A stretch of DNA of 64,000 nt. Origin: Variovorax sp. WS11 (GTDB lineage: Bacteria > Pseudomonadota > Gammaproteobacteria > Burkholderiales > Burkholderiaceae_C). The stretch spans positions 186,001 to 250,000 of the forward strand of contig NZ_JAAGOW010000001.1 of the NCBI RefSeq assembly GCF_010499245.1, given 5' to 3'. The notes under the pieces are model-generated. The model saw only the letters and a program-made list of their open reading frames with translations. It was not told the DNA's origin and made no database searches. Below, in pieces: positions 13,095 to 44,751 of the stretch. Within the stretch, counting starts at the first letter, position 1; each line of letters begins with the position of its first letter. A program made the translations under genes and the position numbers.

Positions 13095-13136
13095 ATTCTT
13101 CGCGCGCGCCCTCGCGCGGTCGAACTCTACTGGGGT
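13095..13136 (-). promoter_or_regulatory. Late promoter-like box, copy A
   Basis: Read leftward: a CCCCAGTAGAG box ending in TTCGAC (-35-like), 18 bases, then AAGAAT (-10-like, 13100-13095). The large virion gene starts 33 bases further on. One of seven related elements. Confidence 0.5.
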
Positions 13137-13169
13137 GCCCCAGGCTTCCTCCTTCAGAATGGTGTCTTG

Positions 13170-13463
13170 ATGCGCCTCACCCTCCTGTGCCTCGCGCTCC
13201 TCCTGCCGGCCGCCGTCGAAGCGCGCATCCCGCGCGACCGAGCTGAGGTTCGGGCCTTCCGAGCAGAGAACCCCTGCCCCTCCACCGGCCTACGGCGCGG
13301 CCGTTGCGATGGGTGGCAGGTTGACCACGTGGAACCGCTGTGCGCCGGCGGCGCGGACAAGCGCGCAAACCTGCAGTGGATCTCGACCGAAGATCATCGC
13401 TTCAAGACCTACGTCGACGTGCGGGAGTGCCGGAAGCAGCGCCGGGCGAACACTCAGCCCTGA
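13170..13463 (+). CDS. Secreted HNH nuclease-like protein
   Basis: A 97-residue protein with an apparent signal peptide (MRLTLLCLALLLPAAVEA) followed by a compact HNH-type core: VDHVEPLCAGGADKRANLQ, with Cys residues at both ends. Export of a small HNH protein is seen in several phages and bacteria; its role is unknown. ATG 13170 gives the signal peptide; TTG 13167 is the alternative. It is inserted against the leftward late genes and followed by its own terminator. Confidence 0.82.
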   Translation: MRLTLLCLALLLPAAVEARIPRDRAEVRAFRAENPCPSTGLRRGRCDGWQVDHVEPLCAGGADKRANLQWISTEDHRFKTYVDVRECRKQRRANTQP

Positions 13464-13486
13464 CTTACCGCTCAGGGCTTTTTTTT
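13456..13486 (+). terminator. Rho-independent terminator after the HNH gene
   Basis: AGCCCTGA (13456-13463) pairs with TCAGGGCT (13472-13479), followed by eight T. It overlaps the HNH stop codon. Confidence 0.9.
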
Positions 13487-14293
13487 GGGCGGCGCGGGCA
13501 CCTCGATTCGGGTCCGCTTGCGAATCTCGACGGTCCGACCGTCTGCCAGTTTCACGCGCACCTTGCTCGGCGGCGGCGCAGGGGGAGGAGTAGCTTCCAC
13601 GGCCTGCGCAACGCGTTTTGCAGATGGCGCGCTGCCAACGTCCCGAAGCTGATCGATTTGCATCTTGATCTCGTCCGAGCGCTGGTCGAGCGCCTGCAGT
13701 TGCTCCCGAATGCGCCCTACCCTGCCCGCATGCTTCTCCACTGCAAACGAATCCTCGCCCTTGTGAGCGGCGTCCAAGTCTTCCAGCGCGTCCGCGAGCG
13801 GGTTGTGCAAGGCCGTGATTTGCGACTGCAAGCCGAGTAGTTGCCCTTCAAGCATGGCAATGTTCGACTGCCGTTGGCTTTCGAGCATAGAGCGCATCAC
13901 TGCTTCCTGCTTCGCGAGTGCAGCCGAAATCCTCTCTTCGGTTGGATCCGCCGCGGCTGCAGCATGGGGAAACGTAGCAGCCCATTTCTCAGGAGCTCGC
14001 GTGCGTGGCTTTTTCTCCGCCCTGACGACCTGCGCCCTGACATATTCCGTGAGCTCTTCGAAAGTCATGTCCACAGATGACCCATCTCGCTTCAGCGATC
14101 TTATTGGCCCGGCTAGCTTGAGTTCCACCTGCGTAGGCATTTCAGCCAGAGAGCGCTCAAGCCTCTCGACGATTTCGCTGTTCATCGATCGCTTGTTCTT
14201 CGCCGCAGCCTCGGCAATACGGTCGCGCATGTCCCCGGGCAGCCGCACCATGAATTTCGCGGCTGCGTCACTGGGGTACTTTTCTTGTTCCAT
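13472..14293 (-). CDS. Arc-type ribbon-helix-helix protein with coiled coil
   Basis: The N terminus carries an Arc-like ribbon-helix-helix ([18 protein letters not shown], then [14 protein letters not shown], residues ~13-50). A long helical, Gln/Glu-rich middle follows, then a basic Pro/Lys tail. At 273 residues it is far longer than Arc. Probably a DNA-binding regulator of this insertion. It faces a second RHH gene across a region of inverted repeats. Confidence 0.82.
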
Positions 14294-14307
14294 TTGCGCA
14301 ATCGTAC

Positions 14308-14362
14308 TGTCAAGTCGACACCTTTCTGATGTGGCGACTTGACACTAGTAGCGACTCGACAT
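14308..14362. promoter_or_regulatory. Operator-like repeats between divergent RHH genes
   Basis: TGTCAAGTCG (14308-14317) and CGACTTGACA (14335-14344) are perfect inverted copies, and GCGACTCGACAT (14351-14362) is a third related half-site. They lie between two divergent ribbon-helix-helix genes, as expected for RHH operators. Confidence 0.65.
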
Positions 14363-14401
14363 ACATTTTTGCTGTCGTATGGACAAACATAAGGAATCAA
14401 G

Positions 14402-14596
14402 ATGGCACGACTGAAGGTCGACACTTGGCGCGGCGCGATCAGGATGCCGCTGCCTCTTGCTCAATGGTTGCAGGCCCGAGCAGATGCCAACTACCGCTCT
14501 TTGAACGCGGAGTTGGTCGAGATGGTGCGGAGGGCCAAGGAAGACGAGTCGACGTCGGCTCCGATGCCGTTGGAGCCGACGAAAGGATCACCGTGA
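14402..14596 (+). CDS. Small Arc-type ribbon-helix-helix protein
   Basis: 64 residues: RGAIRMPLPLAQWLQARAD, then RSLNAELVEMVRRAKED, the strand-helix-helix pattern of Arc/Mnt repressors. Predicted DNA-binding dimer, probably binding the upstream repeats. Starts at ATG 14402, 39 bases past the last half-site. Confidence 0.8.
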   Translation: MARLKVDTWRGAIRMPLPLAQWLQARADANYRSLNAELVEMVRRAKEDESTSAPMPLEPTKGSP

Positions 14597-14657
14597 GAAA
14601 TTGGCAGGCTGACCTTGCGCGATGCCAAGCCGCTTCCATAAGCTGTGCGCAAAGAAA

Positions 14658-14687
14658 GAAGCCCGACTGCGTCAACAGCCGGGCTTC
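14658..14687 (-). terminator. Hairpin with a leftward T-rich tail
   Basis: GAAGCCCG (14658-14665) pairs with CGGGCTTC (14680-14687). Leftward it is followed by TTTCTTT, so it is a possible terminator for that direction; rightward there is no T-run. Confidence 0.5.
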
Positions 14688-14724
14688 GAATGACAGCCGA
14701 ACGTACTACAGAACGGATATCTAA

Positions 14725-14997
14725 ATGAACAATAGCACACAGCGTGCCACGCACGCAAACGTCTTCGCCCTGCCCACAGCGGCTGCCTCGCTCGTCGTGC
14801 AGCATCCGCGCCACGGCCGCTATCCCAGCAGCATTGCGAGCATCGCTCGAGCGAGAACGGCGCGCGCCGCGCGCTTGGACAGTCAGAAGGTCCTCGCTCG
14901 AGAGCGCGATCACCTGATCGGCGCCCTGCTCTACAGCCAAGCCCGTCTGCGGGAAATCAACGCCGAACTGCACATAGGAAAGACGGGGGCACGCTAA
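14725..14997 (+). CDS. Unrecognised 90-residue protein
   Basis: Starts MNNSTQRATHANVFALPTAA, then a basic helical segment (RARTARAARLDSQKVLARER) and a heptad-like C-terminal helix (LIGALLYSQARLREINAEL). No family recognised. It could be a small nucleic-acid-binding protein. Confidence 0.6.
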   Translation: MNNSTQRATHANVFALPTAAASLVVQHPRHGRYPSSIASIARARTARAARLDSQKVLARERDHLIGALLYSQARLREINAELHIGKTGAR

Positions 14998-15038
14998 GAG
15001 GGTAGGGCGTCGCCAGCGCCAGGTGATACGACACCAAA

Positions 15039-15557
15039 TCAGTGGGTGAGAAGGCTGGGTTGAGCCAGGGCTTCCAGAGTCGCGCGCGCTTCGGCGAATT
15101 CCGGTTTCTCTCGGCGGCGCTCGTTCATCAGCTGCGAGCCGACCTGGCCCTTTACCTTCGAGGGCATTTCTCGGCGCTCCAGTTCGAGCAGTTGCTCGGT
15201 GATGGACTTTTCGGCCCTGGCCAGCCGCTCCGCTACCTCCTCGAAGGCGTTCAGGAAACGGATGCGGACCTCGCGGGCGTCGTCGCCCGAGAAGCCCATG
15301 GCCAGCTCAGACAAGCCTTTGGCTGTCATCCTGAACATCGCCAGCCGCCGGCCGGTCGAGTCGAAGTAGACGCTGGGCTGAAAATTCAGCCGAGCATGCT
15401 CAGCAATGAGCTCGCGGCCGCTCCTTAGCATGCGGTCGATGGTTTGCAGCACGTTCTTGTGCCGCTTGCCGAACGCAAGCGCGACGGCGCGGGTGTCGGT
15501 GACAAGCTCCGCGCCGTCGCGGGCGATGAAGACGGTCAGGTCATCGATGTAGCTCAT
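15039..15557 (-). CDS. Rha family phage regulatory protein
   Basis: The N-terminal half carries the Rha pattern (AVALAFGKRHKNVLQTIDRM, then FRMTAKGLSELAMGF). Rha proteins are phage-encoded regulators; in lambdoid phages Rha interferes with growth in hosts lacking IHF. The C-terminal third is a charged helix. It follows a small HTH gene by three bases, so both are probably one transcript from box B. Confidence 0.85.
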   Translation of the reverse strand: MSYIDDLTVFIARDGAELVTDTRAVALAFGKRHKNVLQTIDRMLRSGRELIAEHARLNFQPSVYFDSTGRRLAMFRMTAKGLSELAMGFSGDDAREVRIRFLNAFEEVAERLARAEKSITEQLLELERREMPSKVKGQVGSQLMNERRREKPEFAEARATLEALAQPSLLTH

Positions 15558-15560
15558 CGC

Positions 15561-15767
15561 TCAGCCCTCCACGCCCATCAAGCGCTTGATATCGGCGACC
15601 GGCCATGCCAGTCGGCCATTCACGCGCAGCGGCTTGAGCGGACCTTCACCTTTGCATGCCCAGAGGTGCAAGGTCTTAATCGATCGGCTGAGATGATGGG
15701 CAGCTTCTGCAGACGGTATTGCGGAGCGGGTTTCACGCTCCAGAGGAATGACAGCCCTGGCTACCAT
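15561..15767 (-). CDS. Excisionase-like helix-turn-helix protein
   Basis: 68 residues from ATG 15767 (MVARAVIPLERETRSAIPSA). An AlpA/Xis-type winged HTH is visible (IPSAEAAHHLSRSIKTLHLW) with a KPLRVNGRLAWPVADIKRLM wing. AAGGG lies about ten bases upstream. ATG 15794 would leave almost no leader after box B. It is more likely a MerR-like phage regulator than the integrase partner, since no integrase is nearby. Confidence 0.7.
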   Translation of the reverse strand: MVARAVIPLERETRSAIPSAEAAHHLSRSIKTLHLWACKGEGPLKPLRVNGRLAWPVADIKRLMGVEG

Positions 15768-15802
15768 GATGCGCACCCTTGAGTGGTTGAACATGGTTTC
15801 TC

Positions 15803-15843
15803 ATTCTTCGCATGGGTCGCATTTCTCCAATCCATACGGGGGG
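15803..15843 (-). promoter_or_regulatory. Late promoter-like box, copy B
   Basis: Read leftward: CCCCCCGTATGGATTGGAG, 16 bases, then AAGAAT (15808-15803). The HTH-Rha pair starts 35 bases after the -10-like element. Confidence 0.5.
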
Positions 15844-15916
15844 TATCGGCTGGCAACAGCGACAGCGCTTGCGAAGTATTTGGCTCCTGAAGCAGGCCCC
15901 TGCTACATTCCGGGCT

Positions 15917-16069
15917 GTGACGACCTACCTCTTCATCAAGCTTTTGGCCTTCGGCGTAGGTGCGTTCTGCTGGGGATGGTGGTGCTCGGTTAACGGTCGC
16001 GATTTGTCAGGCCGACGGGTAGGCCAGCGGCCGCCAAACGAGCCACCTCCGACTCAGCGGGGCGACTGA
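15917..16069 (+). CDS. Possible small membrane protein
   Basis: GTG-started frame of 50 residues: MTTYLFIKLLAFGVGAFCWG then WWCSVNGRDLSG, one clear hydrophobic segment followed by a hydrophilic tail. Its last ~80 bases overlap the end of the convergent 550-residue gene. Supported only by its membrane-protein-like sequence. Confidence 0.4.
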   Translation: MTTYLFIKLLAFGVGAFCWGWWCSVNGRDLSGRRVGQRPPNEPPPTQRGD

Positions 16070-17642
16070 GGCCCAGCCTCGGGCCGTCGACCGTCGGCGC
16101 CTTTGTGATCCCGCGCTGCATGGTTTGCGAAAGCGCCGCGGCCCGCGCAAGCGGGCGCGCAACCAGGTGCAGGGCTGCCGCCGGGCCGAATGCGGCGGAC
16201 CCCAATGCCGCACCTCCAAAATCTAGCGGGCTGATGCCGGGCTGAGAGCCGATCTGCTCGACTGCCTGCGTTGCTTTCGGGAACGCGGCTGAAAACTCTG
16301 CGGCCTTCTTCAAGTCACCGGTCAGGCGGCCCTTCTTCAAGGCGGCGACCAACTTGCGCCCATCGATGGTGCCGGTGCTGGGATTCGTCGCCCGCTCGAC
16401 GTCATACACCCGCGCGAGCGTCTGCCGCGCGTTGCGATAGCCGGCGAGCAATTCAGGCTTGCCCTGGGCGGTGAGGTTGCGGTCGATCAAATCTTCGAGC
16501 GCGCCGGACACCTTGTTTTGCACTCGTCCAAGTGCCTGCTTCTCCGGGTCGCTGAAGGCGGACTTGTTGGCGTTCGCGCTCGCACGCAAGCGCTTGATCG
16601 CCTCGATTGCGCTCTGCGCATCGAAAGCGGTCTTGCCTGCGAAACTGTCGACCAGAGCCTCGACATCCTTGTGGATCACTTCGGGGAAATCGGCCTTCAA
16701 CTGCTTCGAGCTCGCTCCGACTTTTTCGAGTGCGCCACGGAACGCGTCGTCGGCAGTGAAGGTGCCGGCGCGGCCGAGAGCGTCGTATGCTTGATTCGCG
16801 CGAGCACGGACAGCTGCCAGGCCTTCCGGTGTCAGATCTTCTGCGCCGATCGCTTCTCGCGCGATCTTGTTGAGGAAGCCCTGATTCCTCGAACTCGCCT
16901 GTTGCGCGACGCTTGCTTTCCCCGCGTAACCCTCGACCGCTCGATTCACCAGGGTCGGCTTGACCATCGATGGCGGCACGATCAGTCCACTTTCCGCTCC
17001 TGCAGCGGCGGCGTCGCGGAGGCCCGTCGGCACCTCTGGCCCTCGCATTGCTTGCTGCGCCCGAAAGCCAGCTACGCCAAGGCCGCGCACAACAGCCGGC
17101 AGTGCAGCACCAATCGCGGCACCCGTCGCGGCATCATTCGGATCCACGAGCGCAGTGGTCGCCGCGCCGCCGATGGCGCCACCGGCAACGCGGGTGGCCA
17201 AGCCAGCGCCATCTGCGCTCAACCCGCCTGTTTCGATCGCCCGCCCCAGGGCTGCAACTCGTGGTGCAGCGCTGGCGACGCCAGCAGCCCGCACTCCCGC
17301 GCCGAGGGCAGCACCCGCAGGGGCAGCGATGGCGACCTGGCCAGCGATGCGCCCCACATCGGCGGCCGTGCTGTCGCTGTACGTCTTGTCGAAGTCGGAC
17401 TTGCCGGTCTCATTGAGGGCGGCGACTCGATCGCCCTCTTTCGAGCTGAATGCGTTGGCCAGCACCTGCGCCGGCTTGTCGATCACGTCTCGAACTCCGC
17501 GCACGAAGCCAGCGCCCAGGCCTTCGATCGTGCCCACTGCGGGCGCCGGCGCAGCGTATTTCGTCCAGGGCCCCGCCTCAGCCGGCGGCACAGCGGCGGC
17601 GGCCGGCGGCGCTGCCTGGTACTTCTCCCACGGGCCGGCCAT
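15990..17642 (-). CDS. Putative ejected or virion-internal protein
   Basis: 550 residues. The N terminus repeats a short motif (GPWEKYQ, GPWTKYA) seen at the start of many podovirus virion or ejection proteins. A Gly/Ala-rich hydrophobic region (residues ~95-200) resembles a membrane-inserting segment, then an all-helical half follows (VIHKDVEALVDSFAGKTAFD). Its ATG overlaps the stop of the upstream gene (TAATG). A role in DNA ejection is inferred from composition and position. Confidence 0.65.
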   Translation of the reverse strand: MAGPWEKYQAAPPAAAAVPPAEAGPWTKYAAPAPAVGTIEGLGAGFVRGVRDVIDKPAQVLANAFSSKEGDRVAALNETGKSDFDKTYSDSTAADVGRIAGQVAIAAPAGAALGAGVRAAGVASAAPRVAALGRAIETGGLSADGAGLATRVAGGAIGGAATTALVDPNDAATGAAIGAALPAVVRGLGVAGFRAQQAMRGPEVPTGLRDAAAAGAESGLIVPPSMVKPTLVNRAVEGYAGKASVAQQASSRNQGFLNKIAREAIGAEDLTPEGLAAVRARANQAYDALGRAGTFTADDAFRGALEKVGASSKQLKADFPEVIHKDVEALVDSFAGKTAFDAQSAIEAIKRLRASANANKSAFSDPEKQALGRVQNKVSGALEDLIDRNLTAQGKPELLAGYRNARQTLARVYDVERATNPSTGTIDGRKLVAALKKGRLTGDLKKAAEFSAAFPKATQAVEQIGSQPGISPLDFGGAALGSAAFGPAAALHLVARPLARAAALSQTMQRGITKAPTVDGPRLGLSRPAESEVARLAAAGLPVGLTNRDR

Positions 17643-20347
17643 TACGACTTCCTCCAGCTCTTCGGGTCAGCCGGATCGCCGCCGAGGAAGGTGTACCCGC
17701 CATCCTGGGCGCCGGCCTGCGGTGCCGACGGGCGAGTGCTCGCGGCCGCAGGGTTGGCGGCCGCTGCAGGCGTAGGAGACAGCTGGGCAGCAGCCGGGGT
17801 CTCCGGCCCTCGCACCTGCGCCACACGCTTGTCGGAGTCCGGTACCTCGGCGAGGATGCCGCGCGTGGCCAGCAGCCGGTTCTGCCGCTTCTGCTCGATG
17901 ACCTTCTCGCCATCGCCAGGCTGCGGGAAGTACTGCTTCCGGGCATTGTCGAACTCGTGATCGGCGATGGCCGCGCCCGACTCGCGACGCAGTGCGGCAT
18001 TGATGAAGTCGCGCTGCGCCTGCTCGACCTGCTGCTGCTCGGCGCTCTGCGTGAAGTTGGCGAGGCCGCCGGCACCCACCGTCTCGGCCGCGCGCTTGAT
18101 GAGCCCAGGCTGGTTGACCCCCTTCGACGCCAGGCTGTCCAGGAGGTCGCCAGCGGTCTGCATGCGCGTGCCGAACTGCAGCGCCTTCGCCTGCGTATCG
18201 TTCAGCGGCGCGCGCGAGCCGCGCACCGAAGGATCGGCCGGACCGCCTGGAACGAACTCGAGGGTGCCGTCCGTTTTTCGCCGATAGCCTGCGGGCGACT
18301 CGCCCGCGACCTTGGCTGCCTCGATCTCCAGCCGCTTCCGCGCGATCGCGTTGGTCTCGGCGTTCTGCGCGTCAGCGATCCTCGCGCGCGCCTCGGTGCC
18401 GCGCTCGGCGATCAGTGCGCGAGCTGTGTCGCCAGCTTCGGCCTGCGCAGTCCTTGCAGCTTGCGCGCGCAGCTGGATGGGCGTCAGTGCCGCCTGCACC
18501 GCGGCCTCATCTCCCTGGAAGCCACGGCGCGGAGACCAGGAGCCACGTGCGGCCGCGGTGCGCAGAGCCGCGCCTTCGTTGAACTCGGCGTTCCGGTTCG
18601 CATAGTCGGCACCGATCACGGCGACGCCCGGCGTCGGGTCGCTGGGTTTGCGCACCTTCTGCAGATCTTGCTGGTGGGCGATGTCTCGGTTCAGTTGGCC
18701 GAGAGTATCCGTCGAGCCCGGCAAAGCGGTGACGCTGCCGGCGGCCGGGTAACTCGGTGCCGCGGCTGCAGGCGCAGCGACAGGCGCAGCAGCAGCCGGA
18801 GCGGGCTCCGCAGCAGCCGCCGGAGGCGCTGCAGGATCTTGGTAGGCGCTGCTGCGCGGATCCGTTGTGGCATTGAGGCGCTGCGCGGAAGGTGCAGCGG
18901 CCGGCGGCGCGGGGGGTGCGACGGTGACCGCGGGCGCGAACGTCTGGCCTTCAGGGCCGCTCGTGGCGGTGACGCCCTGGCGTAGCCGATTCGCCAGCCC
19001 GTAGGTGCGCGCGTCGCCAGCCAACTGCGGATAGAGGCCGAACGCAGCCCCTCCGCTCTGTGGCGCTGCTGCCGCCGCATCGCGGCGTCGCTGCTCTTCG
19101 TCATCGACCAGACCACCATCGGCATAGCCCGCGCGCTTCTTCTTCAGCCCTAAGCCGCCAGGCGCAACACACGAGCCATCGACCACACCGCCGTCGCGAT
19201 AGGCCACGAACTGGCCCCCAGTGCGGTTCGAGTACGGCGCCGGCGGCGGAGGGAGCGGTACCGGAGCCGCGGCGGCCGGCGCAGCTGCTGGTGTCGCCGC
19301 GGGTGCAGGAGCAGCAGGGGGCGGAGGCGTCGAAATGCCGCCGTAGGCCGCAAACGTCGGCTGGCTGGCCGGTCGCTGCAGGCCGAGCCCCGGAGCCGGC
19401 GCCGTCGGCGTGGCGGGTGCCGCTGGTGCTGCAGCTGGCCGCAAGCCCAACCCTGGCGCCGAGTTGGACGCCTGCAGGCTGGCAATCTGCGCCTTCGTGT
19501 CGGCCAGGCTGCCAAGCGCATTCGGTCGGCCGATCCCCGACGCAGGATTGAAAGTGCTCGGCGGTTGCGCAGGTTGTGGTTGAGGTGCGGCTTGGCGCCC
19601 GAGGTCGTACGTGCGCAACACCTGCCCGCCCACCGAAGGCGCTGCAGGCGCTGGCGCGCCGGATAGGCCAACCGGCGGCGCGCGGTATGGCGCGGCGGCC
19701 GGCGCCGGCACGCCAGTCGGCACCACCGTGACGGAAGGATCGCTCGCTGCCGCCGCTGCGTCGCCGAAGCTACGCGGACGGCTCGGGTCATCGATCAACC
19801 CGCCATCGGCGCGCCTGGTCAGGCCGAGCTTGGGACCATCGTCAGCAGGCTTGTGCGTGATGTCCTTCAACGCGGTGAGCACCGCGGCGCCGAGGCCATG
19901 AACCTTCTCTGGCGTCACTTCGAATTCGCCGTTGCTGACCATCGCCGGAACGGTGTCGGGCAGCCGCTCGAGGTTCTGGGCGCCGAGCGTTGCGGTCGAA
20001 TCGGCCGGCATGATGAACGCACCCAGGGGCAGATCGCGGGGGATCGAATCGGAGGTGCCGGTACCGGGGCCCCTGACCATTCCCCCGTCCTTCAGGCCTG
20101 CTGCCTTCATGCGCCGATCCAGCGCAGTGTTGCCGGCATAGTTGCTGACGTTGCCCAGGCCACCAGGCGCAGCAGGCGCTTCCGCTGGAGCCGGTGCCGG
20201 CGCGGGGGCAGCTGCAGGCGGCGACGTGTTGCCGTAGATCCGGTCGGTGATCCGTCGCACGATCCCGCCGTCGGCGTAGTGCTGCACCTCCGTGTGCCGC
20301 GTGCGCGCCAGAGAGGCGCCGGCGTTGCCAGGCTGGGAATCGGTCAT
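17642..20347 (-). CDS. Large Ala/Pro-rich virion-associated protein
   Basis: 901 residues with at least four spaced xDGG motifs (HYADGGIV, GLKDGGMV, RRADGGLI, AYRDGGVV, GYADGGLV) separated by Ala/Pro-rich low-complexity linkers, and a helical C-terminal third. The C terminus DGGYTFLGGDPADPKSWRK is a recurring phage-virion ending. I cannot name the function. It is the first gene behind box C, with a roughly 21-base leader. Confidence 0.65.
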   Translation of the reverse strand: MTDSQPGNAGASLARTRHTEVQHYADGGIVRRITDRIYGNTSPPAAAPAPAPAPAEAPAAPGGLGNVSNYAGNTALDRRMKAAGLKDGGMVRGPGTGTSDSIPRDLPLGAFIMPADSTATLGAQNLERLPDTVPAMVSNGEFEVTPEKVHGLGAAVLTALKDITHKPADDGPKLGLTRRADGGLIDDPSRPRSFGDAAAAASDPSVTVVPTGVPAPAAAPYRAPPVGLSGAPAPAAPSVGGQVLRTYDLGRQAAPQPQPAQPPSTFNPASGIGRPNALGSLADTKAQIASLQASNSAPGLGLRPAAAPAAPATPTAPAPGLGLQRPASQPTFAAYGGISTPPPPAAPAPAATPAAAPAAAAPVPLPPPPAPYSNRTGGQFVAYRDGGVVDGSCVAPGGLGLKKKRAGYADGGLVDDEEQRRRDAAAAAPQSGGAAFGLYPQLAGDARTYGLANRLRQGVTATSGPEGQTFAPAVTVAPPAPPAAAPSAQRLNATTDPRSSAYQDPAAPPAAAAEPAPAAAAPVAAPAAAAPSYPAAGSVTALPGSTDTLGQLNRDIAHQQDLQKVRKPSDPTPGVAVIGADYANRNAEFNEGAALRTAAARGSWSPRRGFQGDEAAVQAALTPIQLRAQAARTAQAEAGDTARALIAERGTEARARIADAQNAETNAIARKRLEIEAAKVAGESPAGYRRKTDGTLEFVPGGPADPSVRGSRAPLNDTQAKALQFGTRMQTAGDLLDSLASKGVNQPGLIKRAAETVGAGGLANFTQSAEQQQVEQAQRDFINAALRRESGAAIADHEFDNARKQYFPQPGDGEKVIEQKRQNRLLATRGILAEVPDSDKRVAQVRGPETPAAAQLSPTPAAAANPAAASTRPSAPQAGAQDGGYTFLGGDPADPKSWRKS

Positions 20348-20374
20348 GTGCGGGGGCCTTTCAGGATGCCCGGC

Positions 20375-20417
20375 ATTCTTCGCGCGCGTGCGCGAGCGGC
20401 CAAACCTTGGTGGGGGG
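20375..20417 (-). promoter_or_regulatory. Late promoter-like box, copy C
   Basis: Read leftward: CCCCCCACCAAGGTTTGGCC (TTGGCC as -35), 17 GC-rich bases, then AAGAAT (20380-20375). Confidence 0.55.
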
Positions 20418-20419
20418 CC

Positions 20420-20692
20420 TCAGGGCTTGGCGATAGGAGCGATGCACTCATCGAGCGCAGCGACCAGCTTCTCTTCGTAGCCGTCGCGCTGCAGCCGTTC
20501 TGCGCGTGCGGCGCGCACGTACTGATCGACGTCCGACCCCTTGCGAAGGGCCTCGGTCGCGAAGACCGGCCGCTCGGGCTTCTGCGCCTTGCACTCCACG
20601 CCCACGGCTGTCTTCACGGTGAAGGCACCGCCGGTGGCGCTGCAACCCACCAGGGTCGACGCGGCCAGGATCACCAAGGCGAGGCGTTTCAT
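20420..20692 (-). CDS. Rz1-like outer-membrane spanin lipoprotein
   Basis: 90 residues beginning MKRLALVILAASTLVGCSAT: a lipoprotein signal with lipobox LVGC at Cys17. It starts inside the upstream Rz-like gene stop (ATGA), the usual nested or adjacent Rz/Rz1 arrangement. Together they would fuse inner and outer membranes at lysis. Assigned by lipobox and position, since spanins are poorly conserved. Confidence 0.78.
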   Translation of the reverse strand: MKRLALVILAASTLVGCSATGGAFTVKTAVGVECKAQKPERPVFATEALRKGSDVDQYVRAARAERLQRDGYEEKLVAALDECIAPIAKP

Positions 20693-21248: not shown

Positions 21249-21309
21249 CGAGGTGATCACCACCAGCCCCAGGGGCGCCACCACATCGCCCACCAGATCG
21301 AGCTGTAGA

Positions 21310-21873: not shown

Positions 21874-21880
21874 GGTCGCC

Positions 21881-25587: not shown

Positions 25588-26190
25588 TCAGTCCGTTGTC
25601 ACTTCGGGTTGCACGGTCACCGTGCCGGAGAGCAGCGTCTTCACCACGCCGGTCGAGCTCACCATCTCAAGGTCGAAGACGCCGTAGGTCCAATCGAGCG
25701 CCGCGGTGTCGGCGGCGCTGACGTCCAGCGTGATCTTGAAGCCCGTCGCGTCGATGACGATGCCGCCGGCCGTGGTGTCCAGGCGCAGCAGCTCGGTGCC
25801 GCCGACCCGATCCTTCACCGACATGCGCGCCGTGTAGCCCGTGAGCGGTACCGGCGTGTTGTAGCGGAGGTAGCCGCCGCTCTTGTAGGCCGAGAAGCCC
25901 GCGGAGTTGATGCCGTCGAACTGCACCGTGTCGGCGGTCAGCACCTTGGCCTTGAAGTAGTCGCGGCTGCGCGGCGGGTCGTTCTGCGCGTTGATCTGCC
26001 GCATGCCCACCACCGAGACGATGGCCACGCGCCAGCCCTCGGGAATGTCGTGGTCCACGCACGTGACGACCGTCGGCGCGGCCTTCGGGATTCCAGTGAT
26101 AGGTTTGTAGACCACCGGGCCCGACTCCCAGCGCAGGATGCGCGAGAAAGTCGAGCCCTTGCGGATCACGAGATTGGTGGGGGACGCCAT
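25588..26190 (-). CDS. Virion protein with FCCH-like domain
   Basis: 200 residues beginning MASPTNLVIRKGSTFSRILR. The middle (EGWRVAIVSVVGMRQINAQ) is a beta-rich segment annotated in many phages as ubiquitin-activating E1 FCCH-like. The C-terminal part is beta-rich too. Probably a baseplate or fibre-attachment protein. First gene behind box D and adjacent to the tail fibre. Confidence 0.65.
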   Translation of the reverse strand: MASPTNLVIRKGSTFSRILRWESGPVVYKPITGIPKAAPTVVTCVDHDIPEGWRVAIVSVVGMRQINAQNDPPRSRDYFKAKVLTADTVQFDGINSAGFSAYKSGGYLRYNTPVPLTGYTARMSVKDRVGGTELLRLDTTAGGIVIDATGFKITLDVSAADTAALDWTYGVFDLEMVSSTGVVKTLLSGTVTVQPEVTTD

Positions 26191-26198: not shown

Positions 26199-26241
26199 AT
26201 GGTGTCGGCCCCCTGCCCGCCCGCCAAACCTTGGTGGGGGG
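26199..26241 (-). promoter_or_regulatory. Late promoter-like box, copy D
   Basis: Read leftward: CCCCCCACCAAGGTTTGGCG, then 17 bases to CACCAT (weak -10, 26204-26199). The box edge is 33 bases from the next start codon. A small hairpin (CTGGCG, 26242-26247 with 26255-26260) separates it from the upstream gene. Confidence 0.5.
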
Positions 26242-34085: not shown

Positions 34086-34089
34086 GGCC

Positions 34090-35519: not shown

Positions 35520-35537
35520 GTTTTGCTCCGGTGGATC

Positions 35538-35566: not shown

Positions 35567-35593
35567 GAACGGGACTTTCCCAAGGAGAGAGGC

Positions 35594-36067: not shown

Positions 36068-36135
36068 GAGAGGCTCCTGAATGAAGTTGAGGGTGTTGCG
36101 TCAGGGGCGAGCCGGCCGGAGCCGGCCCATCCGCA

Positions 36136-37416: not shown

Positions 37417-37439
37417 TCAGGACTCCGTGGCGGTTTGGT

Positions 37440-38543: not shown

Positions 38544-38621
38544 GTTTCCAGTTCCTTGCCACATCTCGCCGTGGCCGCCAAAGGTCTTGGGTGCTCAGCC
38601 GGGATGGCTTTGCTGGCGGCG

Positions 38622-38664
38622 ATGGTGTCGATCGAGAACTAGTTGGCAAAACCTTAGTGGGGGG
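38622..38664 (-). promoter_or_regulatory. Late promoter-like box, copy E
   Basis: Read leftward: CCCCCCACTAAGGTTTTGCC, 17 bases, then CACCAT (38627-38622). It precedes the scaffold-capsid transcript by about 80 bases and is divergent from the HsdR_N-like gene. Confidence 0.55.
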
Positions 38665-38714
38665 ACATTGCGAGAGAAGCTATAAAGCCAGCAGACCCAA
38701 AGAACGGAGCGAGG

Positions 38715-39731
38715 ATGGACTTTCCTGAGTACAACTTCGACGCGATGAACGAAGCCGATGTCCGAGAGGAGATCGTCGCGCCACTGATCAGACACCTTGG
38801 CTATCGAGCCGGCACGGAACACGACGTCATCCGCGAGCAGGCCCTGAGCTATGACAGGTCCCAACTCGGGAGGACCAAGTCAAATGACCCTCCCCTTCGC
38901 GGCCGGGCGGACTACATCTGCGTAGCAGGTGGGCGAGTTCGTTGGGTCATCGAGGCAAAGCCACCGACAGACCCCCTCGATCAGGTGGCGGAAGCTCAAG
39001 CCTGGTCCTATGCGAACCACCCAGAGGTGCGCGCCGTCTTTTTTGTCGTGACGAATGGCAGGGAATTCAAACTCTATGAGACGAATCGCGGGCCAACCTC
39101 AGATCCGCTGATGCAGTGCACCTATGCCGATCTGCAGGCGAAGCTGCTGAAGATCGAAAACACGCTGAAGCCCGAGAACATCCTCAGGGATCACCCAGAG
39201 GCGATCGTGGACCCTGGCGAGCCGTTGGCTCCGGGGTTGCGGTCGTTCGCACGCATCGTGAGTGGACGGATGAGGGCGACCAGCATTACGCCGGCTATGG
39301 GACCTATCACCGAGCTGGTGATCTCGATCACGAGCGGCTCCGTGGAACGCAGTGCCGACGGCACCCTTCTGGTGAATTACGCCACCCTCGCACCACTCCA
39401 ATCGCTGCAGCAGGCGAATGTCCAGCTCGGCCTGAGTGAGGTGCAACTGGTTTCCACTGATCGCGTGATCTCTGTCGACAAGGACCGTCCAACGGTTCTG
39501 TCGGGAGCTCGAAGCATCGTGATCCCACGGGGCATGCCGATGCTCAACATGTTGGATTGGAAGACCAACTTGACGCCCGTTGATCTGCTTACATCCGTCA
39601 CCATAGGTGCAAGCGGATACATCTCCGGGCACACGTTCGCAGGCTCCTACGATTCAACCCTCACGATGAGCGGTGGCCCCCGCCTCTTCCAATTTCGACT
39701 GCTCGGCGACTTCGAGGTGCAACTCACCTGA
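38715..39731 (+). CDS. HsdR N-terminal-like PD-(D/E)xK protein (cargo)
   Basis: 338 residues. The first ~150 resemble the type I restriction HsdR_N nuclease domain: NEADVREEIVAPLIRHLGYR, then LRGRADYICV with Asp66 and RWVIEAKPP with Glu80-x-Lys82, followed by EAQAWSYANHPEVRAVFFVV. The helicase and specificity partners of HsdR are absent; the C-terminal half is unassigned and beta-rich. It is read against the late genes, has its own TATAAA (38681-38686) and a purine-rich site before the ATG. This suggests a moron, possibly defensive. Confidence 0.8.
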   Translation: MDFPEYNFDAMNEADVREEIVAPLIRHLGYRAGTEHDVIREQALSYDRSQLGRTKSNDPPLRGRADYICVAGGRVRWVIEAKPPTDPLDQVAEAQAWSYANHPEVRAVFFVVTNGREFKLYETNRGPTSDPLMQCTYADLQAKLLKIENTLKPENILRDHPEAIVDPGEPLAPGLRSFARIVSGRMRATSITPAMGPITELVISITSGSVERSADGTLLVNYATLAPLQSLQQANVQLGLSEVQLVSTDRVISVDKDRPTVLSGARSIVIPRGMPMLNMLDWKTNLTPVDLLTSVTIGASGYISGHTFAGSYDSTLTMSGGPRLFQFRLLGDFEVQLT

Positions 39732-39734
39732 TCT

Positions 39735-42017
39735 CTAAGGCGCGTTGTCCGTCACGCGTTCGGTCTCGATGCCCTGCATGCCGCCATCCAGTGGCGAGGG
39801 TGGCGCCTGCGGCACCGGCGGCTGTGTCGGGCTGGTGTTCTCGGCTACACCAGGCGTGCCGGCCACGTCGACCACACCGGCCGGCGGTAGGCCTGCGGGC
39901 ACAGGCAGGTTCGGATTCTGGCCCACCGGGTTCGGCGGCTGGTAGCCGGCTGCCTGCGCCACCACATCCGCGACCGGCGCGATGGCCGGATTCATCGCGA
40001 TCGTCGCGGCCGTCTGGTTCGCCGAATACAGGGCCTCGACGTTGGTCTTGAACGCGTCGGCGATCAGCTTGCCGATCTCGGCCTTGAGCTTCTCTTGCGG
40101 GTAGCGCATCGAGAGTTCCTGCAGCTTGAGGTCTCGGGCGTCCTGCATGCGCGCCTGCGCCACAGCCTGGTCGATGCGCTCCTGGATCTGCTCGGGCGAC
40201 ATCTGCGCCGAGGCCTCGCGCACGGCCTTGATGATGTCCTCGCGGTTCGGCAGGTCCATCAGCGCGATCAGGTAAGGCATCGCCACCTGCTGGTACTGCA
40301 CCGGCATCGCCTTGAAGGCTTCGGACATGGCCGTGAGCTGCTGGCTGCGGTAGCTCGGCGTGCTGGGCACGTCGTTGAGTGCTACCTTGAGCTTCGTGCG
40401 CTCGACGTCGTTGTCCAGGTAGGTGTAGCCGCCCTCGTCCTGCGTTGGCACGTTGAGCTGCACTTCCTTCTCGTCGCGCAGCGGATCGCCCTTGATCTTC
40501 ACCGTCTCCTCGCGACCGATCATGTCCTCGACGATCAGCGACAGCAGCATGTCGCCGACCTCGGCGCGCGCGGTCGCGAAGTTGTCGTTGATCTCGGCCA
40601 GGGCCTGGGTGCTCTGCTCGAGCTGGGTTGCTTCCTGGACGCCCGATGTGGCATTGCCACGGCCGCCCTGCAGGCTGTCGGTGATGCCGCTCACGCGCTG
40701 GATGCCGGCGCGCGAGTCCTGCAGCATCTGGTACTGCTGCTGGTTCAACTCGAAGTCGCGCTCGACCTTGAAGGTGGCGCCCTGCTTGGCCATGTGCTCC
40801 TGGCTGAGCACGATGTCCGCATCCACCCGAGCGATCTCCTGCCGGAACTGCTCGTCCGTCCCGGCGATGGCGCCCTTCGTGCGGGTCGTGCGTACAGCCG
40901 AGAGGCCCCAGCGCAGCTTGCTGTTCGTCGCGTTGACGTTGTCCTGCATGTAGACCATGCCGCGCACCAGACCGTAGGGCACGCCCGTGCGATCCTCCTT
41001 CTTGCCCCAGAACGGGATGTAGGGGAACTTCTGGTGCCGGTAGGGCGTGGGCCCGTCGTCCAGCATGTGCGGACCCATCCACATCGAGCGGCGCATCTTC
41101 GGCACGATCGCCCATTCCGGGACCGTGGCGCCGACCGCCACCAGCTGCACGTGCACCGCGTTCTTGCGGTCGTACTCCACGACCCGGCCGTCCGGCGTCT
41201 TCAGCACCAGCACGCGCTTCCAGCGTCGGTACCAGGTCTCGAACAGGCAGACGCGCTTGCCCGTCATGTCGCGCCACTGCTGCTCCTCGACGCTCCAGCC
41301 GCGCTGCTGGTCCCACGCACTGGCCAGATCGGTGGAGGTGCCGCCCTCGGTGGTCCCGAGGCCTTCGTAGATCGGCCAGCCGCTGACCGCCTGCGTGATC
41401 AGGTCCTGCTTGCCCGGGAACAGCAGCTTGGCCTGCGAGGTGGGCGTCCAGCGCCGGCGGATCAGGTAGCGAGCATCGCTGAGGTCGGGCTCGACGCTGA
41501 GCATGTCCCACCAGATCTCGTTGCGGTGGATCGCCCTGCAGCGGTACTGGTACTGGAAAGGGTTGGGGTTGCGCCCGACTTCCACCCAACCGAGGCCGAC
41601 CGCCACCTGCGGCTTGAAGGCGTCCGAGCAGGCCTGATCGGCTTTGCTCTGCCGCTCCGCCTGGTTGAGCTTGTAGTTCAGCGCCTGCGCAACGTCGTCG
41701 CCCTCCTGGTCGCCGTCGGGCAGCACGCGCCAGTCCGCTCGCGTCTTCGCCTCCAAGCCCAGCACCGCATCGATCGCCGGGCCGATCAGCGGCTCGATCG
41801 CCGGCGGCATGCCGATCTGCTGCTGCTTCTGCAGGATCTCGGCGCTGAGTTGGTTCCCGTCGTAGTACTCCATCTCCCGGTCGGCCTTGGAGCGCCAGGC
41901 CGGCTGTTCCTCGACCTCGTGGAAGAAGTCGGAGAACTCCGATAGCGTGAGCCTGTCGGCGTCGTCGGCTTGCGCGTTGGGCTTCGGGCCGTTGAGCTCG
42001 GTGGTGAGTGCGGTCAT
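39735..42017 (-). CDS. Portal protein (P22-like)
   Basis: 760 residues. The order of blocks matches large podovirus portals: a leading helical region (FFHEVEEQPAWRSKADREME), PLIGPAIDAVLGLEAKTRAD, the clip/stem region around RYLIRRRWTPTSQAKLLFPG, MYWGPHML-like sheets, and a long helical C-terminal barrel ending with Ala/Pro/Gly. It forms the dodecameric ring through which DNA enters and leaves. Starts eight bases after terL. Confidence 0.87.
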   Translation of the reverse strand: MTALTTELNGPKPNAQADDADRLTLSEFSDFFHEVEEQPAWRSKADREMEYYDGNQLSAEILQKQQQIGMPPAIEPLIGPAIDAVLGLEAKTRADWRVLPDGDQEGDDVAQALNYKLNQAERQSKADQACSDAFKPQVAVGLGWVEVGRNPNPFQYQYRCRAIHRNEIWWDMLSVEPDLSDARYLIRRRWTPTSQAKLLFPGKQDLITQAVSGWPIYEGLGTTEGGTSTDLASAWDQQRGWSVEEQQWRDMTGKRVCLFETWYRRWKRVLVLKTPDGRVVEYDRKNAVHVQLVAVGATVPEWAIVPKMRRSMWMGPHMLDDGPTPYRHQKFPYIPFWGKKEDRTGVPYGLVRGMVYMQDNVNATNSKLRWGLSAVRTTRTKGAIAGTDEQFRQEIARVDADIVLSQEHMAKQGATFKVERDFELNQQQYQMLQDSRAGIQRVSGITDSLQGGRGNATSGVQEATQLEQSTQALAEINDNFATARAEVGDMLLSLIVEDMIGREETVKIKGDPLRDEKEVQLNVPTQDEGGYTYLDNDVERTKLKVALNDVPSTPSYRSQQLTAMSEAFKAMPVQYQQVAMPYLIALMDLPNREDIIKAVREASAQMSPEQIQERIDQAVAQARMQDARDLKLQELSMRYPQEKLKAEIGKLIADAFKTNVEALYSANQTAATIAMNPAIAPVADVVAQAAGYQPPNPVGQNPNLPVPAGLPPAGVVDVAGTPGVAENTSPTQPPVPQAPPSPLDGGMQGIETERVTDNAP

Positions 42018-42025
42018 GGTGGTTC

Positions 42026-43558
42026 TCAGAGGCGCCAGTCGGGTGCAGCGCGAGACCTCGAGGTCTGCGCCACGACGGCAGGGATGTCGGAAACGAAAGT
42101 CATGGCGACCGCGTCGCCCTTGTCTGGCGAGCGGCCGAGCACCTCGCGGATCTCGTCCTTGTCACGGATCAGGATCGCGGCGAACCGGCCGGCCTGGACG
42201 ATCTTGTAGCGAACGGCGCAGAGGTCGCCCTCGAGCTCTTGGTCGGGCGGCAGCGCGATCGGGTTCTCCGCCGTCGGGTCGAGCGCCTCGCGCAGCAGCC
42301 AATACATCTCCGCTCGCTTGTTGCGGAAGTGCAGGTTGCCGGTCTTGTCCATCATGTCGCTCTTCTCGGAGCCGACGACGGGCACGCACGAGATGTTGAG
42401 GCCCTTGATGAAGTCCAGCGCGGCAGTGCCGACGCCGATCGCGTCGATCGCCACGGGCGCGCCGTTGCGGATCAGCGGCGCGACGAAGCCGGCGGCCTGG
42501 GGGCCATCCTTCGTGGCCACGCCAGGGACGGTCACGAGCTCGTCGAACCAGCTGCCGTGCCGGCGGGCCGCCGTGGTCTTGTCGATGCCGCCGCGCGCGA
42601 TGTCCAGGCCTACCGCGGACATCGGGCCCTTCACGTCCCGCGCCCGCCAGCGCGCCTGCGCGGCCTTCACCCACTCGGTGGGGATCAGCTGCCACACCGG
42701 ATCGGCGCGGCCAGCCTGGAAGTCGCCCCGCAGCATCTGGCTGCGCAGCGGCTCGGGCAGCGCCTGCAGCGTCGCCTTGTAGCCGGTGAGGGTCAGGAAC
42801 AGGTTGTCGTCGACCGAGCTCGGGATGAACGTCCGGCTCTTCGGCGTCATCAACTCCTTGCCGACCAGCACCGGCTCAGGCCCGGGCACCTCCATGTCCT
42901 TGCCGGTCTCGTCCGTGACGTACCACCGCAACTCTCCGGGCTTGGCCTTGTTCGGGTGGTTCGGATCGAGCCAGGGCGCCCAGAAGCGAATGACCCATTC
43001 ACCCTCCGAGCTGGTGGGCGGGTTGCCAGCGCAGATCACGCGCTGGCGCACGTTCGGATTGTCCGTGCGCATCCACCCGATGAGGGTGCGGAACTGGAGC
43101 TCCAGGAAGTGGGTGATCTCGTCGAAGCCCTTGAGGTCGTGCGGCCGACCCTGGTACTTCTGCCAGTCGTCGGGCTCCTTGACCGAGCCGAACTCGAGCA
43201 CGCGGTCAGCGGGCAGGCGCCAGACGCCGGACTGGCTGTTGTATCCAGCGCGCGTGCCCAGGATCGTCGTCATCCGCTCTTCCAGGCCCACGAGCTGCAC
43301 GGCCTCGCGCCGGAAGATGATGCTGTGCTCCTGCTGCGTCAGCGCCGCGCCCAGAAGCAGGTCGGTCTTGCCGCCGCCGGCGGAGCCACCGTAGAAGACG
43401 ATGTCCGCCAGCGACTCCAGCGCCATGGTCTGCGGCCCGATCTGCGCCATCCACAGCGGCAGGCCATCGGTGAGCAGCGAGTCCAGCTCGGCGCGCTCGT
43501 CCGAGCTCAGGAAGGGCATCAGCTTCGCCAGATCGGCGGGCGCGAGGTTAGGCAGCAT
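42026..43558 (-). CDS. Terminase large subunit
   Basis: 510 residues. ATPase: Walker A at residues 57-65 (GGSAGGGKT), Walker B near 144-147 (GFDE). Nuclease: Asp319 in AVGLDIARGG and a later GVGTAALDFIKG / DAIGVG block, with a C-terminal acidic cluster. It cuts and pumps phage DNA into the capsid. It overlaps the TerS stop by 11 bases. Confidence 0.93.
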   Translation of the reverse strand: MLPNLAPADLAKLMPFLSSDERAELDSLLTDGLPLWMAQIGPQTMALESLADIVFYGGSAGGGKTDLLLGAALTQQEHSIIFRREAVQLVGLEERMTTILGTRAGYNSQSGVWRLPADRVLEFGSVKEPDDWQKYQGRPHDLKGFDEITHFLELQFRTLIGWMRTDNPNVRQRVICAGNPPTSSEGEWVIRFWAPWLDPNHPNKAKPGELRWYVTDETGKDMEVPGPEPVLVGKELMTPKSRTFIPSSVDDNLFLTLTGYKATLQALPEPLRSQMLRGDFQAGRADPVWQLIPTEWVKAAQARWRARDVKGPMSAVGLDIARGGIDKTTAARRHGSWFDELVTVPGVATKDGPQAAGFVAPLIRNGAPVAIDAIGVGTAALDFIKGLNISCVPVVGSEKSDMMDKTGNLHFRNKRAEMYWLLREALDPTAENPIALPPDQELEGDLCAVRYKIVQAGRFAAILIRDKDEIREVLGRSPDKGDAVAMTFVSDIPAVVAQTSRSRAAPDWRL

Positions 43559-44192
43559 CGGGCTGGGCTCGCTTCTGGGCGGCCGCGAAGATCGCAGCCA
43601 GGCGGCTGGCGCGCTCGGCGTCGGTCAGCTTGCTCGCGATGCCGCTCTCGTCCGGCACGAACTTGTCGATGCCGTAAGCCTCGCGCTCGCCGCGGCGGAT
43701 CTTTTCGTCGACCTCGGACAGCTTCTTCAGGGACTCGATGCGGGCCGGCAGAGACAGGCCTGCTGCAGGTGCGGCTTCGCCTTCCTGCTGCGCGCCAGCG
43801 TCTACAACTGGCGGCGCAGTCTTGCCAAGCTCGTCCAGCAGTTGATCCTTCAGGTCAGTGAGCTTGGTCAGCCCGGTGCGGTGGCCGAGTTGAACCTTGT
43901 AGACGGCGGTGGCGTTGGCGTCTACGACGATCTTGTCGGGGATTCGGTTCGCGGTGCGAACCTCAGTGCGAACCGCATCCATGCGAACCATCTCGTCGGC
44001 CTTGGCCTGGATGGCGGCGGAGAGGTCACGGGCCCATTGCTCGGCCTTCGCGCGCTTACGGATGGCTGTCTCGGAAATGCCGTGCTCGCGGGCGATCTGC
44101 CGGATGCTCTTCACGCCCGCGCGGTAGTCGGCCTCGATCGTTGGCCAGTGAGGTTGGGGCTTCTCGGTATTTGGTTCGCACGCGGCTGTCAT
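43548..44192 (-). CDS. Terminase small subunit
   Basis: 214 residues from ATG 44192. An N-terminal HTH (DYRAGVKSIRQIAREHGISE then TAIRKRAKAEQW) recognises the packaging site; a long helix and an Ala/Pro tail follow. Box F ends 33 bases upstream. No clear Shine-Dalgarno lies before this ATG, so the true start could be a little downstream. Confidence 0.82.
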   Translation of the reverse strand: MTAACEPNTEKPQPHWPTIEADYRAGVKSIRQIAREHGISETAIRKRAKAEQWARDLSAAIQAKADEMVRMDAVRTEVRTANRIPDKIVVDANATAVYKVQLGHRTGLTKLTDLKDQLLDELGKTAPPVVDAGAQQEGEAAPAAGLSLPARIESLKKLSEVDEKIRRGEREAYGIDKFVPDESGIASKLTDAERASRLAAIFAAAQKRAQPDAA

Positions 44193-44200
44193 GGCGCCGG

Positions 44201-44242
44201 ATGATTCCGGGCGCGAACCGGGTTGGCGAACCCTACGGGGGG
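44201..44242 (-). promoter_or_regulatory. Late promoter-like box, copy F
   Basis: Read leftward: CCCCCCCGTAGGGTTCGCC, 18 bases, AATCAT (44206-44201). It lies between a terminator and terS, so it probably starts the packaging transcript. Confidence 0.55.
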
Positions 44243-44260
44243 GACGGTGCGCCCCAATGC

Positions 44261-44282
44261 AAACGGGCCCCGAAGGGCCCGT
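44261..44282 (-). terminator. UUCG-loop terminator before the packaging genes
   Basis: Leftward: AACGGGCCC-TTCG-GGGCCCGTT, a perfect 9-bp stem with an ultrastable UUCG loop, then TTTG. It would end the transcript of the tRNA and the 97-residue gene. Confidence 0.75.
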
Positions 44283-44304
44283 TGCTGCGTGTGCGTGGGT
44301 CAGG

Positions 44305-44598
44305 TCAGATCGAAGGGCACATGCGCCACTGAGGCCGTACCTGCGGGCGCTCGCGCTTGGCGATCCGCAGGGCATAGGCACAGGCCTGGACGAGCTCGAC
44401 CGGGCGGGCCACGAGGCGCAGCGCTGGGCTCTCGAACTTCGCCGTCACGTCCTTCACGAAGTCCCACACGAAGGCGCGCACTGCGGTGCAGGTGCGCGCC
44501 ACGTGGTACGTCACGGTGCTGAAGGCGCTGGCGCCGGCCAGGATGCAGGCCGCGGCCGCGAAGGCCAGGGTGGACAGGAAGCTGCGGGATCGGATCAT
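44305..44598 (-). CDS. Small exported or membrane protein, unassigned
   Basis: 97 residues from ATG 44598: MIRSRSFLSTLAFAAAACIL is a signal peptide or anchor, then a mostly soluble helical region (AFVWDFVKDVTAKFES). It shares a short transcript with the tRNA (between box G and the UUCG terminator). Function unknown. Confidence 0.6.
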   Translation of the reverse strand: MIRSRSFLSTLAFAAAACILAGASAFSTVTYHVARTCTAVRAFVWDFVKDVTAKFESPALRLVARPVELVQACAYALRIAKRERPQVRPQWRMCPSI

Positions 44599-44625
44599 GG
44601 GATGCCCTCTGGATGGTTGGATGGG

Positions 44626-44701
44626 TGGTAGCAAGGGCCAGGCTCGAACTGGCGACCTTCGGGTTATGAGCCCGACGAGATACCGACTTCTCTACCCTGC
44701 T
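44626..44701 (-). tRNA. Phage tRNA-Met(CAT), initiator-like
   Basis: 76 bases including encoded CCA. Acceptor AGCAGGG pairs with CCTTGCT (one G-U), the D arm is GAGA-loop-TCTC, the anticodon arm TCGGG-CTCATAA-CCCGA, the variable loop AGGTC, and the T arm GCCAG-TTCGAGC-CTGGC. The three G-C pairs next to the anticodon loop and A11-U24 in the D stem are initiator features; base pair 1-72 is A-U, not the C-A mismatch of host tRNA-fMet. It could instead be an elongator or a k2C-Ile type, but the arms fit tRNA-fMet best. Confidence 0.9.
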
Positions 44702-44708
44702 GGCGGGG

Positions 44709-44751
44709 ATTGTTGGCGCCGGGGCGCGCCCGGGCCAATCCCTACTGGGGG
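44709..44751 (-). promoter_or_regulatory. Late promoter-like box, copy G
   Basis: Read leftward: CCCCCAGTAGGGATTGGCC, 18 bases, AACAAT (44714-44709). It is immediately before the phage tRNA; the box edge is 33 bases from the mature tRNA 5' end. Confidence 0.55.

Follow-up and report, generated by a model that had tools for sequence, protein, structure and literature searches.

What switches on the several separate late modules of a temperate phage? The question arises at a prophage in a window of 64,000 nucleotides of Variovorax sp. WS11 (GCF_010499245.1, contig NZ_JAAGOW010000001.1, positions 186,001 to 250,000), the window being the whole stretch that was analyzed and the one to which positions without another label refer. 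PHROG and Pfam scans of selected open reading frames (ORFs) identified portal, coat, terminase, head-closure, endolysin, and Rha genes, i.e., an F116/P22-like temperate podovirus prophage. An earlier reading from the letters alone (the sequence-only reading) had described seven similar boxes, each followed by sigma70-like elements at the start of a module, and had suggested that one activator turns on all seven. A common late activator is also what we consider the best reading. With a probability of about 0.82, these are F116/P22-like late promoters bound and activated by the winged-helix protein encoded at 45776-46255, which would recruit the host polymerase. The argument is based on the co-occurrence of box and protein, on one letter of the box (letter 6), and on the position of the gene in F116.

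Seven boxes at module starts

Each of the seven boxes is present verbatim where it had been reported, and all are on the minus strand, i.e., they point leftward. Their ungapped alignment gives CCCCCMSYADGGWTYKS, from which the copy at 13121 deviates. The hexamers that follow them are also those reported: AAGAAT in three copies, CACCAT in two, AACAAT and AATCAT in one each. Following the direction of transcription, box 7 (44735-44751, CCCCCAGTAGGGATTGG) lies 5' of a phage tRNA, with AACAAT at 44709-44714 after a spacer of 20. Box 6 (44226-44242, CCCCCCGTAGGGTTCGC) precedes the terminase genes, and its AATCAT (44201-44206) is flanked by inverted-repeat arms CCGG/CCGG. From the predicted leaderless ATG, the terminase small subunit (TerS) would have 214 amino acids (43548-44192, minus strand); the longer ORF at 43548-44381 matches PHROG 1206 (6.3e-47). 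Box 5 (38647-38664, CCCCCCACTAAGGTTTTG), with CACCAT at 38622-38627, is 5' of the scaffold and coat genes. Boxes 4 (26224-26241) and 3 (20400-20417) have the same sequence, CCCCCCACCAAGGTTTGG. The former stands 5' of the tail-fibre and lysis module, its CACCAT (26199-26204) flanked by inverted-repeat arms and followed by a predicted leaderless ATG at 26190, and the latter, with AAGAAT at 20375-20380, precedes the genes for proteins of 901 and 550 amino acids (ejection; ATG at 20347). Box 2 (15827-15843, CCCCCCGTATGGATTGG) lies 5' of a pair of genes encoding a helix-turn-helix (HTH) protein and Rha (PF09669, 2.6e-20); its AAGAAT (15803-15808) comes after a spacer of 18, with a predicted leaderless ATG at 15794. 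Finally, box 1 (13121-13136, ACCCCAGTAGAGTTCG), with AAGAAT at 13095-13100, precedes a large gene starting at ATG 13061 behind a Shine-Dalgarno-like AAGGAAG. In three copies (26224, 44226, and 44735) the gap from the box edge to the ATG or to the 5' end of the tRNA is 33 bases, as had been noted; for the box at 15827 it is 32.

Two of these leaders have features of their own. Between the -10 of box 1 and its ATG, an AGGTCT...AGACCT inverted repeat occupies 13062-13094 (minus strand), with the AAGGAAG at the end of the loop. The leader from the scaffold promoter to its ATG (38565-38621, minus strand) contains a stretch with the core CCAGC..nGCCATCC, and a similar one is found at the same place in G014, G049a, G060, and L110.

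A degenerate pattern built from six boxes, without that at 13121, was searched across the genome (8.49 Mb). Its 6 matches all fall within the prophage and share one strand, and a reversed control pattern had none. When the window was scanned with a model of 33 sites (threshold 11), the matches were the seven boxes, two weak ones on the late strand without a placed -10 (36705 and 10473), and one on the opposite strand (19215). There is thus no random scatter in coding sequence, the outcome that the sequence-only reading had named as speaking against it.

The box in related phages

The same reading had suggested scanning related phages with a motif model made from the seven sites, and this model transfers to the late-module starts of phage F116. 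With the window-only model (the seven window sites, threshold 13), F116 had five matches. The four best (scores 16.7-18.4), all on the plus strand, lie just 5' of TerS (22727), scaffold (28680), p58 (45730), and holin (59201), and the fifth (13.3) is on the minus strand. LKA5, a relative of F116, gave the same picture, and its record carries an ab initio promoter feature (59725-59759) that overlaps the box promoter (box at 59710). Shewanella phage Y11 had five matches, of which three (12886, 24605, and 56382) precede module starts and two are strays, while 8P and Acidovorax phage AP1 had one each, 5' of the holin and of TerS respectively. No match above 13 was found in Achromobacter CF418P1, Vibrio 1F273_PE002, and BcepMigl (45.6-50 kb of each scanned), which bear the coat and in which we found no regulator. 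For comparison, sixty column-permuted models gave means of 0.4-1.7 matches per region. The F116 / Hollowayvirus group shares with the window the regulator family, the box at late-module starts, and a related portal-coat module, but its letter 6 is mostly T where the window has A or C.

When 100 genomes from the genus were searched, 11 had a match to the box pattern, and the 45776-46255 protein was present in 13 at E<1e-15 and in 17 at E<=0.001; eight genomes have both the box and the protein at E<1e-15. All seven genomes with relatives of the coat protein above 50% identity encode the regulator, and three with a distant coat (G012, G067, and G052) have neither regulator nor box. At E<1e-15, no regulator accompanies the box matches in G056, G065, and G097. 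The protein is matched in part in G097 (2e-4), and on inspection the boxes of G056 and G065 have no placed -10. Across 22 regulator regions, the 33-site model (threshold 11) gave 91 matches on the late strand and 4 on the opposite one. The late strand is that of the regulator in 21 of the 22, G019 having been set opposite; counted by regulator strand, the totals are 92 and 3. In G019 (C20:487467-487590), two divergent boxes lie about 100 bp apart, with the regulator gene nearby.

We then have 20 held-out loci, fetched by the protein alone. In 16 of these the model found 37 matches above 12, 34 of them with a placed -10, where 30 column-permuted models gave on average 5.2 matches (maximum 14) and 0.43 with a placed -10 (maximum 3). 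The matches are on the plus strand in 35 cases; the two on the minus strand belong to L086 and L088, whose regulators are also on the minus strand. These loci include near-duplicates (L106/107, L108/109, and L110-112), and from L106 to L112 the regulators share 76-86% identity with the G014 one.

The association was also found starting from the box. The exact 16-base pattern CCCCCTGTAGGGTTYG matched 97 stretches of virus contigs, of which 80 were listed, and 39 contigs were tested for the protein. As chance could yield many matches in such a collection, the raw count is not evidence, and what counts is the multi-match contigs and the protein test: the protein is encoded by 11 of the 13 contigs with at least two listed matches and by 12 of the 26 with one, whereas a control pattern picked out two contigs, neither of which encodes it. 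The type-A pattern matched one contig with a regulator identical to that of the window and one of 152 kb in which none was found.

A candidate activator

The 45776-46255 gene (minus strand) encodes a putative winged-helix protein of 159 amino acids in the PHROG 8117 / F116 gp37 family (PHROG 8117, 4.4e-38). It sits between the replication genes and the terminase. In F116, the homologue gp37 is directly 5' of TerS, where lambdoid phages keep Q. At E<=0.01 the protein was found in 40 phage records, including F116, 8P, Acidovorax AP1, Pseudoalteromonas Y7, and Shewanella Y11. The two AlphaFold models, of the window protein and of gp37 (predicted local distance difference test scores of 78 and 84), combine a winged helix with a small sheet and end in a C-terminal helix, which is longer in the F116 protein than in that of the window. 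No sequence relative was found in the PDB, and neither model had a Foldseek match at E<=0.001, the best being winged helices (DtxR/IdeR, Mlc/ROK, and DasR).

The sequence-only reading had put forward two HTH genes as activator, and only one of them is retained. The case for 45776-46255 is made by its co-occurrence with the box, by the way letter 6 follows the protein type, and by the F116 homologue 5' of TerS. For the other, 48569-48886, the first nine regions retrieved contained no homologue at E<=1e-4; five of them covered the expected stretch upstream of the regulator.

Letter 6 of the box differs from T in 27 of 28 sites beside regulators whose putative recognition helix carries DDH, and is T in 32 of 37 beside DDR or DDN, a count that leaves out G049a (DDH, four A) and G071 (DEH, mixed). 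In held-out loci, duplicates and short family loci being skipped, the boxes with a placed -10 have A in seven and G in one of eight cases at DDH loci, and T in all 11 cases at DDR loci.

One might object that some other factor shared by host or phages binds the box and that the winged-helix protein is merely a neighbour. Co-occurrence alone cannot prove binding, and most of the phages here have further genes in common. We nevertheless consider this unlikely, since in a 38-kb stretch of G076 the winged-helix gene is the sole homologue among 40 window proteins, letter 6 shifts with the protein type, and the box was not found in the scanned stretches of the three regulator-free phages with related coats. 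In the G019 stretch, the regulator and distant DnaB and replication proteins are the only ones of the 40 window proteins with homologues.

Several observations weigh against a common activator of this family. Phylogeny confounds both the co-occurrence and the behaviour of letter 6, and there are exceptions (AP1, L086, L088, L092, G071, G076, and G019). Among the short family loci, letter 6 is reversed in L086 (DDH with T) and L088 (DDR with A), while L085 (DDQ with G) and L092 (DAH with T and G) fit neither class. The wider set of sites derives from models seeded with the window, and some held-out loci are close kin of the training phages. Four of the 20 held-out loci (L087, L090, L093, and L094) have no box within about 1.5 kb on either side of the regulator. 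G076 has a single box, as do G049b and G059, where it stands 5' of the regulator itself. With the window-only model, Pseudoalteromonas Y7 gave only a stray match. The excess per phage is modest, and single permuted models equalled or passed the observed counts (6 against a maximum of 6 in G014, 5 against 17 in G049a); strand and place therefore outweigh counts. A de novo motif search missed the box in F116, both in the whole genome and in its 30 gaps. Lastly, the protein was not found in 2 of the 13 multi-match and 14 of the 26 single-match virus contigs, many of which are fragments.

For the regulator homologues at G059:C8 4602-4997 and G049:C1 479757-480149 (63% and 58% identical), the sole box detected is the one 5' of the regulator. 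It possibly reflects autoregulation or is a remnant.

Promoter anatomy

Judging from the aligned sites, the feature is a two-part promoter: CCCCC(A/T)GTAGGGTTYG, followed after 18-20 bases by NANNNT. Expectation-maximisation over 82 unique sites placed the hexamer at offset 19 in 59 and at 18-20 in 75, i.e., with little variation in spacing; position 2 is A in 91% and position 6 is T in 97%. For further analysis we required an offset of 18-20, A2, and T6, which dropped nine sites and left 73 (A2 and T6 are at 100% there by selection). The logo of these reads CCCC(C)(T/A)GTAGGGTTYG ... (A/C)AN(A/C)(A/C)T, and only 4% of the hexamers begin with T. Of the sigma70-like elements of the sequence-only reading, the -10 has A2 and T6 but rarely T1, and the likeness to a -35 is confined to the TTYG at the end of the box, the only conserved part, rather than extending to a TTGACA-like element. 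With these two departures, the sites look activator-dependent rather than like ordinary sigma70 promoters.

A mechanism consistent with this anatomy would be as follows. The winged-helix protein would bind the box, which forms an imperfect inverted repeat (CCCC-nnTA-GGG); counting from the leaderless ATG as +1, its centre is near -44. Adjoining the -35 region, it would contact host RNA polymerase carrying the main sigma factor, as in class II activation, and the polymerase would accept a poor -10 (NANNNT, with T rare at position 1) at the nearly fixed distance of 18-20 bases. One activator would in this way switch on together the tRNA, terminase-portal, scaffold-coat, tail/lysis, ejection, HTH-Rha, and large-gene units.

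A second explanation keeps the protein but changes its role: a Q-like antiterminator would load at the box, and the sites would be promoters that are always active, with terminators behind them. There are up to seven separate promoters per phage here, as opposed to the one late promoter of lambdoid Q systems; a -10 without T1 should have weak basal activity; and no Q family appeared in the PHROG and Pfam scans of the protein or among the 50 Foldseek matches listed per model. Despite the Q-like place of the F116 gene directly before the terminase, and the fact that Q itself acts at a late promoter, according to the available text of PMC7326022, we regard this as improbable.

Predicted leaderless starts and an inverted repeat at the -10

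That the promoters might have short leaders or none had been suggested from three copies, and the larger set strengthens the idea. An ATG lies 6-9 nucleotides past the -10 in 31 of the 73 sites, where about 4.5 would be expected. An mRNA from such a site should begin at or next to the AUG, so we predict leaderless mRNAs at these 31 sites. With the leaderless ATG as +1, the box spans about -50 to -34. The frames opened by these ATGs have a median of 214 codons; four of them, shorter than 25 codons, are doubtful (G049a 268689, G033 2210440, G071 190994, and G015 5839). In F116 (NC_006552, 22776-22850), TerS has a further ATG in frame, 25 codons ahead of its annotated start, that matches a leaderless promoter, which suggests that the annotated protein may be too short.

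At the 31 sites with a predicted leaderless start, the sequences on the two sides of the hexamer can pair with each other beyond chance: 116 pairs compared with 97.8 +/- 3.6 when right arms were exchanged among sites, a value that none of 2000 exchanges reached. The 42 remaining sites show no such excess (99 compared with 99.7). When similar arms were collapsed, leaving 19 leaderless sites, the numbers were 65 and 54.6 (p 0.0006), and the mean folding z-score against mononucleotide shuffles is -2.6 in leaderless and -0.35 in other sites. If a late transcript begins at the AUG, the 5' arm would be missing from it, whereas a transcript reading through from upstream would carry the hairpin, which might silence it. 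A precedent is gene e of T4 (PMC3014915), whose longer early transcripts are silenced by a hairpin; the late promoter lies within the sequence encoding the 5' side of that hairpin. There, the hairpin hides the ribosome binding site and the sigma factor is T4's own gp55 (PMC3014915); here, the repeat precedes predicted leaderless starts and recurs at many promoters.

Very improbable in our view is that the box is itself the -10 (TARGGT) or a phage-polymerase promoter, with RNA starting just past it and the hexamer and hairpin lying in the leader: letters 8-13 (TAGGGT/TAAGGT), a resemblance to CACTAAAGGG of T3/T7-type promoters, and the significant inverted repeat 5' of the ATG speak for it, but A2 and T6 at a fixed spacing, with or without the repeat, as well as the 6-9 nucleotides to the ATG and 7-9 to four tRNA ends, would be left unexplained, and a Pfam scan of nine window proteins found no RNA polymerase domain.

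The tRNA behind box 7

The unit behind box 7 begins with an initiator-like tRNA-Met(CAT) (44626-44701, minus strand; ARAGORN; Rfam RF00005, 64.5 bits), whose 5' end is 7 nucleotides past the -10. The window, G094b, G007, G051, L102, and L103 each have a single tRNA-Met(CAT) that lies downstream of the regulator by no more than 2 kb and is preceded by a box or a promoter resembling one. The positions of tRNA-Met(CAT) in relatives are 14745-14820 in L071 (G094b), 11625-11697 in L078, 10228-10304 in L082, 10510-10586 in L102, and 10508-10584 in L103. Read by eye, the distance from the end of the -10 to the tRNA is 7, 9, 7, and 7 nucleotides in the window, G094b, G007, and G051. No tRNA was found in F116 (1-50000) or LKA5 (20000-64746).

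Initiator tRNAs have a weak or no 1:72 pair, A11:U24, and three G:C pairs in the anticodon stem. As judged by eye, the window tRNA has A11:U24 and GGG/CCC, but A1:U72 rather than C1:A72. All three features are present in its best match among the other tRNAs of the genome, an initiator-like tRNA-Met. By the same inspection, G094b also has A11:U24 and GGG/CCC, whereas G051, L102, and G007 do not, and C1:A72 is found in the tRNAs of G051, G007, G094b, and L103. In the available text of a review (PMC9031893), extra initiator tRNA strongly enhances leaderless translation and only mildly the canonical one, which makes the combination of tRNA and leaderless starts suggestive, no more.

Taken together, these elements could form a co-ordinated leaderless late programme, a proposal we make tentatively and hold to be rather doubtful. 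Under the winged-helix activator, many of its late mRNAs would have the AUG as their exact 5' end. The hairpin over the -10 would keep read-through transcripts of these genes silent as long as the late promoter is inactive, and some phages of the group would gain, from their first late unit, an initiator-like tRNA favouring leaderless translation.

Elsewhere in the window, past the replication genes, the phage encodes a phosphoadenosine phosphosulfate reductase (51812-53047, minus strand; PHROG 12882, 5.5e-234).

Known systems and implications

The arrangement is ordinary in kind, namely one phage activator for many late promoters. In P2 (Ogr), P4 (Delta), and Mu (C), one small phage activator serves several late operons through a shared upstream site at poor sigma70 promoters. 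Ogr, which acts near -55, has a zinc finger, and C belongs to the Mor/C family, unlike the present case, in which the protein is a winged helix of PHROG 8117 and the box touches the -35 region. The new parts are the protein family, the box, the fixed geometry, and the leaderless subset with its inverted repeat. In position, there is a likeness to gp6 of GIL01, a small phage DNA-binding activator of a lytic promoter (P3) whose site overlaps the -35 and is centred at -43.5, a class II position, in the available text of PMC6182141. By the same text, gp6 differs in being a LexA-like protein with one late promoter, in a phage of Bacillus thuringiensis. Neither the box nor such an activator was found described in the literature covered, which includes work on F116-related, other Pseudomonas, and Vibrio phages but not the original F116 genome paper.

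If the proposed activation is true, a widespread group of temperate podoviruses, among them the transducing phage F116, would have its missing late-gene switch identified. It would give a function to PHROG 8117, an unassigned protein family. It would also provide a promoter-activator pair for further use. The predicted starts suggest corrections of start codons, such as an F116 TerS beginning 25 codons earlier, and with them leaderless translation in phages would become directly testable.

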